DNA of 34,362 nt, from NCBI GenBank assembly GCA_018825785.1, contig JAHKAY010000055.1, forward strand, positions 1-34,362, written 5' to 3'. The number at the start of each line of letters is the position of its first letter. Position 1 is the stretch's first letter. Of this stretch, positions 6,982 to 14,667 are shown one piece after another. The notes under the pieces were generated by a model. That model was not told where the DNA came from. It ran no database searches and saw only the letters and a program-made list of their open reading frames with translations. Source of the DNA: Chloroflexota bacterium. Its GTDB lineage: Bacteria > Chloroflexota > Dehalococcoidia > JACVQG01 > JAHKAY01. Made by a program: the position numbers and the translations under genes.

Positions 6982-8018
6982 ACCTCTTCCAGGGGGTGCT
7001 GGGCTAGCCGTTCTTTCAGCAGGTCTATGGTGGGGACAGGTGAGGGGTCAACCCCGTGTAGGCCCGCCAGGTAGTAGCTCACCCAGTCCCCCAGATAGAG
7101 CAGGCCCATCATCTGGCTGAGGACCGCTTTACCCTCCCTCATCACCTCTTCATAGGCTACCCTTTCCCTGTGGAGGACCTCCCGGGTGATTTCCAGGCGC
7201 AGGCGGTGGCGGGGTGAAAGGAGGGGGGAGGTGAGGAGCACCACCAGGCTCCCGGCTCTTACCCCAGCGGGAAAAGAATACCCCACCACCGAGTTGTGGT
7301 GGGCCTCCGGCAGGGTGTCAAAGAAGGCCCAGGATTTGGCATTCTCATTGAGCTGGTTCTTCCAGCGCCGGGACACGCCTTGGAGGAACCCGGTCCCATA
7401 GACCACCACCAGGCGACGGGCTAACCTCCGGGCCAGGGTCTTGGCGGGGTTTCCCCTTTCCATCCCCAGGGCCCCGGCCATCTTCTCCAGGACCCCCACC
7501 ATCTCCGCCACCCCGGCGGACTTGTCGCGGAGCAGGCCCAGGCGCTCCAGGGCCCCCACCAGCCCCAGGAAGCTGTAGCCTACCGCCGCCCGGGGCGGTG
7601 CCTGATAGTCTATCGAGAAGACCGGTATGTCTTCCTTCTTGGCCAGCTCCCCCAGCCGGCCGCCGGAGGTTATGGCCAGCTTTCTGGCCGGGCTCTTGAG
7701 GCTGGCGAGAAAGCTGGAGAGGGTCTCTTCAGTATTGCCGGAGTAGCTGGAGAAGATGGCGAGTGTGCGCTTGTCCAGGAAGGGAGGGGGGGTGTAGTCC
7801 CGGTGGACGATGACCGCCAGGCCCTCCTCGCCGGCCAGCCCTGCCAGCAGGTCCCCTGCGGTGGCGGAGCCTCCCATTCCCACCAGCACCAACTTGTCCA
7901 CCTGCCGGTAGCTCCTGGGGAGCTTCAGCCCCAGCCCCTTCTTGTAGGCCAGGAGGCACTGCTGGGGGAGCGCCAGGAGATGGGCCTTCATGCCCCCGGC
8001 GTCTCGCACCTTGACCAT
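6978..8018 (-). CDS. Bifunctional phosphoglucose/phosphomannose isomerase (SIS family)
   Basis: The product interconverts glucose 6-phosphate or mannose 6-phosphate with fructose 6-phosphate, joining glycolysis to sugar-nucleotide synthesis. It has 346 residues with two SIS modules. Visible motifs are VGMGGSATAGDLL, the phosphate-binding FSSYSGNTEETLS, TSGGRLGELA, and NENAKSWAFFDTLPEAHHN, which in the archaeal/Chloroflexota enzymes holds the catalytic Glu and the proton-shuttling His. The ATG follows directly on the stop of the upstream phosphohexomutase, a partner in the same pathway. It is the last gene of the minus-strand run. Confidence 0.9.
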   Translation of the reverse strand: MVKVRDAGGMKAHLLALPQQCLLAYKKGLGLKLPRSYRQVDKLVLVGMGGSATAGDLLAGLAGEEGLAVIVHRDYTPPPFLDKRTLAIFSSYSGNTEETLSSFLASLKSPARKLAITSGGRLGELAKKEDIPVFSIDYQAPPRAAVGYSFLGLVGALERLGLLRDKSAGVAEMVGVLEKMAGALGMERGNPAKTLARRLARRLVVVYGTGFLQGVSRRWKNQLNENAKSWAFFDTLPEAHHNSVVGYSFPAGVRAGSLVVLLTSPLLSPRHRLRLEITREVLHRERVAYEEVMREGKAVLSQMMGLLYLGDWVSYYLAGLHGVDPSPVPTIDLLKERLAQHPLEEV

Positions 8019-13481: not shown

Positions 13482-13489
<8 letters not shown>

Positions 13490-14003
13490 GGCCGGCCTTC
13501 TTCTCCTGGCAGCGGGGGCAGAAGGCCCGGCCCTTTCTATCGGTGTCCTCCAGGGAGTTGGAGAAGGTCATAACACAGCCGGGGTCGGGGCAGTGCCCCA
13601 GGGTGAGGAGGTGGCCTATCTCGTGGACGGCCTCTCTGACGGCCCTCTCCAGGAGGAGGTTCTTGTCAGGGGGCTGGCCGTGGTATTCGGGCCGCAGGCG
13701 GGTGAGGGAGATGACCGCCGTCTGAATCCCCGGCGCCGCCAGGCCGAAGACAAAGTCCAGCCCGGGGCTGTAGATGTCCACATCCGCCACCCCCAGCAGC
13801 CTCTCCCCCTGCCGGGGCAGCCGGGCGAGGGCATAGAGGAACTCCGAGGCCTGGTGCTGCCCCCGCTTGGGGTTGTACGCTGACGGGGGAAGGGGCATGC
13901 TGTTCCCTAGTTCGGCCCCCTCCACAAAAACCTCCGCCAGGGCCTCCCTGAGCCCGGAGAGGACATGGTCCTCTATCTCGCCCACCGGGACCAGGCGTAT
14001 CAT
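13482..14003 (-). CDS. amzA: Archaemetzincin-type zinc protease
   Basis: The protein has 173 residues and the full archaemetzincin signature. The catalytic helix HEIGHLLTLGH holds zinc ligands H127, H131 and H137 and the general base E128. It is followed at once by C138 and C143, then M145 (Met-turn) and the C162-x2-C165 pair, which in known structures form a second, structural zinc site. No signal peptide is seen, so it is probably cytoplasmic. Its natural substrate is unknown in any organism. The ATG overlaps the stop of the THEP1-like gene (ATGA), and it overlaps the kinase fusion, so it is part of the operon. Confidence 0.92.
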
Positions 14004-14524
14004 GCCGTTTGCAGCCAGGCCCTGACCTCCTGGAGGCAGGCCTGGAAGTTGGAGCGGGTAAGCAAGAGGACCCGCACCTGGGGCAGGGCTTTTATGCGGT
14101 CGGCGACGGGGTGGGGTGCCAGCATGATGGTCCCCAGGACCCTGCCCATCTCCAGGGCCCGGGCCACCGCCTCCTGGAAGGCGGTGGAGAAGAGCTCCAT
14201 CTTGCCTATCTCATCCACCACCACCAGCCTTTTCTCCTCTAGCGCTTTCCTGAGGGCTTTCACCCCCACCCTTTCCAGGGCGGCCACATCCACCCCATAT
14301 TTGCCCACCCGGAAGGGACCGGGGAAGTCCACATGGGCCAGGACTGCCGTTTCCCCCTCCAGGGTCACCAGGCGGAAGCCCTGCCTTACCCCCCCGGCCC
14401 GGATTTCCTCGGTATAGAACCCCCCTGCCCCGCCGGAGTAAGAGGCCAGGGCCTCCTTGATGAGGGTTGTCTTGCCCGAGCCGGGGCCCCCTGTGAGGAG
14501 GCAGGCGGTCTTGGCAGAGCCTAT
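14000..14524 (-). CDS. THEP1-like nucleoside-triphosphatase, start codon unclear
   Basis: THEP1-family P-loop NTPases hydrolyse nucleotides; their cell role is not settled. Visible are the Walker A region LLTGGPGSGKTTLI near 14495-14460, GGFYTEEIRAGGVRQGF, and Walker B RLVVVDEIGKMEL, ending at the TGA at 14000-14002. The frame has no ATG, GTG, TTG or CTG between the upstream in-frame stop (14624-14626) and Walker A. A start at the GTG of 14368 would delete Walker A. The best-placed codon is an ATA at 14522-14524, overlapping the TAG stop of the small upstream gene. A -1 frameshift out of that gene is the alternative. Family identity is firm and the start is not. Confidence 0.75.
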   Translation of the reverse strand: MGSAKTACLLTGGPGSGKTTLIKEALASYSGGAGGFYTEEIRAGGVRQGFRLVTLEGETAVLAHVDFPGPFRVGKYGVDVAALERVGVKALRKALEEKRLVVVDEIGKMELFSTAFQEAVARALEMGRVLGTIMLAPHPVADRIKALPQVRVLLLTRSNFQACLQEVRAWLQTA

Positions 14525-14610
14525 GCCTTCCGCTCTACCTTCTTTCTCTCCGCGTATTTCTTCGCTTTGACCCGATGTTTGGCTATGGCTACCCTTTTTC
14601 TTTTGTTCAT
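14521..14610 (-). CDS. Small, very basic protein (29 residues), function unknown
   Basis: The product begins MNKRKRVAIAKHRVKAKK and is more than 40% Lys, Arg and His. The ATG at 14610 has a good ribosome binding site (AGGGGAGA) 2-3 bases upstream. Tiny basic proteins of this kind are often ribosomal or RNA-binding, but I do not recognise a named family. It is the first gene of the minus-strand run that continues into the THEP1-like NTPase. Its stop codon overlaps the only plausible initiation site of that NTPase. Codons further upstream in the same frame run through an intergenic repeat and are not part of it. Confidence 0.6.
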   Translation of the reverse strand: MNKRKRVAIAKHRVKAKKYAERKKVERKA

Positions 14611-14667
14611 CTTCTCCCCTGAGCTATTACTTAGGCTGTAAGAGTTCCCGTCATAGGGGGGCAAGGA

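Follow-up and report, generated by a model that had tools for sequence, protein, structure and literature searches.

A candidate AUA start codon overlapping the stop codon of a small basic gene at a THEP1-like NTPase locus of a Chloroflexota bacterium

The gene for a THEP1-like NTPase in the window analyzed here (the whole stretch of 34,362 nucleotides from a Chloroflexota bacterium) raises the question of where its translation starts. The original prediction held that the frame lacks ATG, GTG, TTG and CTG ahead of the Walker A motif, and this was borne out: 44 open codons separate the upstream in-frame stop (TAG 14626-14624, minus strand) from the Gly that opens Walker A, and from this stop to Walker A the frame contains none of these four codons and no ATT or ATC either. 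The first canonical codon is GTG 14368-14366, and starting there would delete Walker A. Upstream of Walker A, the near-cognate codons are ATA 14557-14555, which lies within a small upstream gene, and ATA 14524-14522; reading the junction confirmed that the latter is the sole well-placed codon and that it overlaps the TAG stop of the small gene (Table 1). Read from this ATA, the frame has no internal stop and its translation matches PF03266 over the full length of the domain in a profile search (E 6.5e-41, profile positions 3-167 of 168), includes a Walker B motif with the catalytic Glu (VVVDEIGKME), and scores 147.3 bits with NF010248, which is under the cut-off of 156 of that model. The THEP1 NTPase of Aquifex aeolicus belongs to the same family and likewise has Walker A near the N-terminus and a Walker B with glutamate (PMC1079890); compared with it, the window gene is unusual only in its start codon and in its overlap with the small gene.

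Table 1 Features of the THEP1 locus in the window and of other genes discussed in the text (G000, source genome)
Feature	Position	Strand	Description
Small basic gene MNKRKRVAIAKHRVKAKKYAERKKVERKA	14521..14610	-	29 codons; stop TAG 14523-14521
Shine-Dalgarno (SD) sequence GGGGAG of small gene	14614..14619	-	3 nt ahead of the ATG of the small gene
Weak SD-like stretch AAAGAAGGTA upstream of ATA	14536..14545	-	Best duplex -5.4 kcal/mol
ATAG junction, proposed start ATA (14524-14522) over stop TAG (14523-14521)	14521..14524	-	Based on sequence and on junctions of relatives
THEP1/NTPase_1 gene read from ATA	14000..14524	-	174 codons + TGA; PF03266 match
Walker A GGPGSGKT	14468..14491	-	From translation; first Gly 11 codons past ATA
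Downstream archaemetzincin gene	13482..14003	-	NF033823, E 8.9e-54; ATG overlaps THEP1 stop as ATGA
ahcY-like gene, ATAG overlap with stop of preceding gene	11933-11930 (window)	-	GGAGG 6 nt before ATA
pyrH without NTG start	L207 (G000:C19), just upstream of 11788	-	Strong SD GGAGG 6 nt ahead of an ATC that occupies the usual start position
pepP-like gene without NTG start	L232 (G000:C24), near 7265	-	GGAGG 7 nt before ATC
ispF-like gene	L314 (G000:C45), 16152	+	GGAGG 5 nt before ATC; no NTG start before GYDVH motif

We suggest that THEP1 is probably initiated at AUA 14524-14522 by coupling to termination of the small gene, as a variant of NTGA coupling with a rare start codon. Specifically, the small gene would be translated from its own ribosome binding site, and ribosomes terminating at its UAG would restart on the overlapping AUA with initiator tRNA, the junction being the usual 4-nt NTGA coupling site apart from its UAG stop and from an A replacing G at the third start-codon base, which the two codons share. 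As a weak codon, AUA should hold synthesis of THEP1 well below that of the small protein and may also render it sensitive to IF3. Among the three options in the original prediction, which were an ATA start through stop-start coupling, a -1 frameshift and a sequence error, the first is the best supported, on the grounds of the NTGA geometry, the recurrence of ATA in relatives and the predominance of ATA at the start position of infC in the class. Counted against it are the weak SD-like stretch, the lack of enrichment of ATAR overlaps over CTAR and GTAR in half of the genome, an alternative GTG start in one of the relatives, and the reliance on one metagenome-assembled genome (MAG) with a split atpG, all of which are considered below.

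The GGGGAG at the predicted ribosome binding site of the 29-codon gene has a modeled duplex energy of -6.5 kcal/mol. Because a 16S rRNA was not found in the source MAG, the standard anti-SD tail was assumed for this and all other duplex energies. A profile of the small-gene family matches the locus with an E value of 2.4e-10 in the source genome and also matches other genomes of the class, and M1, N2, K3, A8, K11 and H12 are invariant in an alignment of 18 members; comparison of the small protein with Pfam, NCBIfam and PDB gave no convincing match. The small basic gene is also located directly downstream of THEP1 in two genomes (L383 in G040 and L382 in G028) and is present in genomes without a THEP1 match, for example G022 and G048, and we therefore regard it as an independent gene.

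The small gene and THEP1 are co-directional with a -4 nt overlap, and THEP1 lies in the -1 frame of the small gene. The SD-like stretch ahead of ATA (-5.4 kcal/mol) is weak compared with the median of -8.1 kcal/mol for 45 ATGA overlaps in the same genome and with the energies of -10.8 to -11.4 kcal/mol in genus g155 (see below) and -10.9 kcal/mol at infC; for this reason, we infer that the terminating ribosome would supply initiation. The predicted RNA fold at the junction is ordinary (z-score -0.58).

To place this junction among its relatives, we compared 99 THEP1 loci from the same class, in which start codons were picked by a scripted rule within 5-16 codons before Walker A and not inspected singly. 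A canonical codon is present in this interval in 91 of the 99 loci (ATG in 76, GTG in 13 and TTG in two); the remaining eight are the window, G040, two species of g155, three species of genus g194, and one locus cut by a contig end. The small basic gene is found within 450 nt upstream of THEP1 in 47 loci, and the commonest junction between the two genes is the 4-nt overlap (21 of 47), with 16 ATGA, one GTGA, one TTGA (in G003, a relative from the same order) and three ATAR cases, namely ATAG in the window and ATAA in both g155 species; a 1-nt overlap occurs in nine. Because the 4-nt overlap recurs in relatives, the ATA in the window sits at the start-codon place of a recurring arrangement. Most relatives start THEP1 at codon -8, and three loci (L154, L165 and L181) have ATG at the identical codon -11, with MPESKTAFLLTG in L154 versus IGSAKTACLLTG in the window. 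As a side observation, one THEP1 copy (L116, G180:C34:9758-10264) holds an in-frame TAG.

In both g155 species, which belong to one genus, an in-frame TAA immediately precedes the ATA of the ATAA junction, making translation of the THEP1 frame from upstream impossible, and the only later canonical codon is a TTG at -3, from which a start would cut the first strand. Between their THEP1 genes, 22 codons show synonymous and 15 non-synonymous differences (dN 0.043, dS 0.245, dN/dS ~0.17), and this low dN relative to dS indicates that the protein is kept under purifying selection. G040 has ATAG behind a different, rhodanese-like gene, and here a GTG 10 codons upstream is an alternative start. In genus g194 (L186, L187, L188 and L037; three species), codon -8 of THEP1 is a GTT behind AAGGAGG-ACAAA; dN/dS is about 0.12-0.16, and two of the species have a TTG at -21. 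A change from ATGA to ATAA takes a single G to A substitution and retains the stop, while ATGA to ATAG takes at least two changes. In a tree of the 99 THEP1 proteins, in which the window pairs with the TTG-starting G003, four changes account for the seven non-canonical rows when ATA and GTT are pooled, and at least three of the four are forced by supported branches; separate origins of the putative non-canonical starts would thus be needed.

The proposed junction resembles a known mechanism. In stop/start coupling at NTGA (PMC6728339, PMC12548453), two genes on the same strand share bases of stop and start at -4 spacing, as they do in the window, and NTGA is by far the commonest close spacing among coupled genes (PMC12548453); most relatives of the small gene/THEP1 pair with -4 spacing have NTGA as well. 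The window differs in its ATA start and, as a consequence of this start, in its overlapping TAG stop (TAA in g155), and the parts of these sources available to us describe NTGA and not NTAR. Because an ATA takes the place of the NTG start in the overlap, our claim is that the junction works like stop/start coupling and not that it is an ordinary member of this class. Native AUA starts have been measured in Staphylococcus aureus at infC, ccpN and citZ, and the non-canonical starts in that study reached about 10 to 30 per cent of the AUG level (PMC13009471). These chromosomal genes have the same start codon, AUA, as is proposed for THEP1; in contrast, their AUA sites have an extended SD, whereas the window has a weak SD and a codon that overlaps the upstream stop (PMC13009471). 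By analogy to infC (ATT/ATC, autoregulation by IF3) and sigR (GTC, repressed by IF3), which have non-NTG starts as the candidate AUA would be, discrimination by IF3 would be expected at the window gene; sigR differs in its GTC start, and the accessible text describes no such overlap for it (PMC5472188). A search of the literature available to us for Chloroflexi together with non-canonical start codons returned no papers.

The main rival to AUA restart is that a sequencing or assembly error in the source MAG conceals a canonical start, which we consider unlikely although more probable than the remaining alternatives. In its favor, the species is known from a single MAG, in which a wrong base may be present at the junction; moreover, the two parts of atpG lie in different frames on either side of a G-rich run (L233, G000:C25, minus strand), perhaps owing to an assembly base error, and the assembly may therefore contain an indel error. 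However, an ATG at this position would abolish the stop of the small gene and extend it by ~45 codons, ATAA is common to two independently assembled g155 species and ATAG is present in G040, and several further genes of the genome have a strong SD that is not followed by a canonical start, a pattern that random errors would not explain. Initiation at another non-canonical codon, such as ATA 14557-14555 or one located past the junction and ahead of Walker A, appears improbable: the GTT that g194 seems to use at -8 behind AAGGAGG in three species indicates that odd starts do occur in THEP1, but codon -8 in the window is GCC, and ATA 14557-14555 falls within the small gene and lacks the geometry of the junction. 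Slightly less probable still is that THEP1 is a degenerating copy that no longer has a start. The missing canonical start would fit with decay, as would the lack of a THEP1 match in both same-family genomes, and yet the domain is full length with both Walker motifs and without a stop, the overlap with the next gene is retained, and purifying selection acts on THEP1 in relatives whose junction is of the same type.

The least probable alternative, to which we give very little weight, is a fusion of the basic tail of the small gene to THEP1 through a -1 frameshift shortly before the small gene ends. It would agree with the THEP1 frame being open across the small gene, in whose -1 frame it lies; however, the last codons of the small gene (AGA AAG AAG GTA GAG CGG AAG GCA TAG) contain no slippery heptamer X XXY YYZ, no stimulating RNA structure is predicted, the two are separate genes with their own starts in most relatives, and in g155 the TAA directly ahead of ATA closes the frame. 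On these four grounds, we rejected a conserved -1 fusion, and the frameshift in the original prediction is unsupported; the A-rich stretch proposed as its site does exist and is not recognizable as a frameshift site. Across relatives, the junctions show a recurrent ATA (ATAA in g155, ATAG in G040).

If AUA restart is correct, then replacement of a UGA stop by UAA or UAG allows the start codon overlapping it to drift to AUA, and restarting ribosomes may, therefore, accept codons that are rejected in de novo initiation. Gene finders limited to NTG starts would truncate or miss such genes. Moreover, the small gene/THEP1 pair, whose junctions in nature include ATGA, GTGA, TTGA, ATAA and ATAG, would be a ready test set for codon choice in coupled restarts and for proofreading by IF3.

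Next, we asked whether other genes have non-NTG starts in the source genome and in the class. In a rule-based scan of stretches covering ~51% of the genome (815 kb, 645 ORFs), 17 ORFs had no usable NTG start, and these were then read by eye. Several of these are apparently antisense or wrongly bounded, one is prfB with its known RF2 frameshift and one is atpG; by eye, the ones we accept as genuine genes that lack an NTG start are infC (ATA), pyrH, pepP and ispF (all ATC) and THEP1. In G003, 236 kb (149 ORFs) scanned by the same rule yielded four such ORFs, but none was convincing on reading by eye and without homology tests. Neither type of site forms a class of its own: 4-nt ATAR overlaps are not enriched in the half of the genome scanned (16 ATAR versus 15 CTAR and 16 GTAR), leading us to reject them as a genome-wide class, and ATA, ATC and ATT codons led by an SD are not enriched either, such that the support comes from single genes without another start. 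Loss of IF3 was rejected as a cause because infC is present, and an odd initiator tRNA was also rejected, the one candidate (L318) having the GGG/CCC anticodon-stem pairs by eye.

The infC gene of the source genome has ATA at its start (L191, G000:C3, near 15449; further infC loci, L351-L376). Among 30 relatives, 16 were unreadable by motif, and the 14 readable ones have ATA in nine, ATC in three, ATT in one and none of these in one at the start position. Because infC of the class mostly has ATA, AUA initiation is plausible in the class. By comparison, pyrH has ATG in the same-family genomes G001 and G002, and among 29 relatives, one had no motif match and 27 of the other 28 have a canonical codon at most 18 codons from the motif, the remaining one, L256, having its nearest at -20; thus, in this sample, the ATC at pyrH looks particular to the source genome. 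For pepP, six of 29 relatives had no motif match and one (L294) lies at a contig edge, and all 22 readable relatives have a canonical codon in the printed range, in most cases an ATG between -24 and -30 relative to the motif; these starts were not assigned gene by gene, and several candidates exist in, e.g., L287 and L295. Unreadable loci (seven for pepP and one for pyrH) were counted neither way. The ATC of the source genome lies at -24 from the pepP motif and is probably also particular to this genome.

More speculatively, and in our view doubtfully, the AUA and AUC starts might form a translationally regulated, IF3-repressed set comprising infC and THEP1 (AUA), pyrH, pepP and ispF (AUC) and perhaps ahcY (AUA), in which overlapping genes would be fed by the preceding termination and ATAR would be an overlooked coupled start. 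In the ahcY-like gene, a GTG four codons past ATA may be the start instead.
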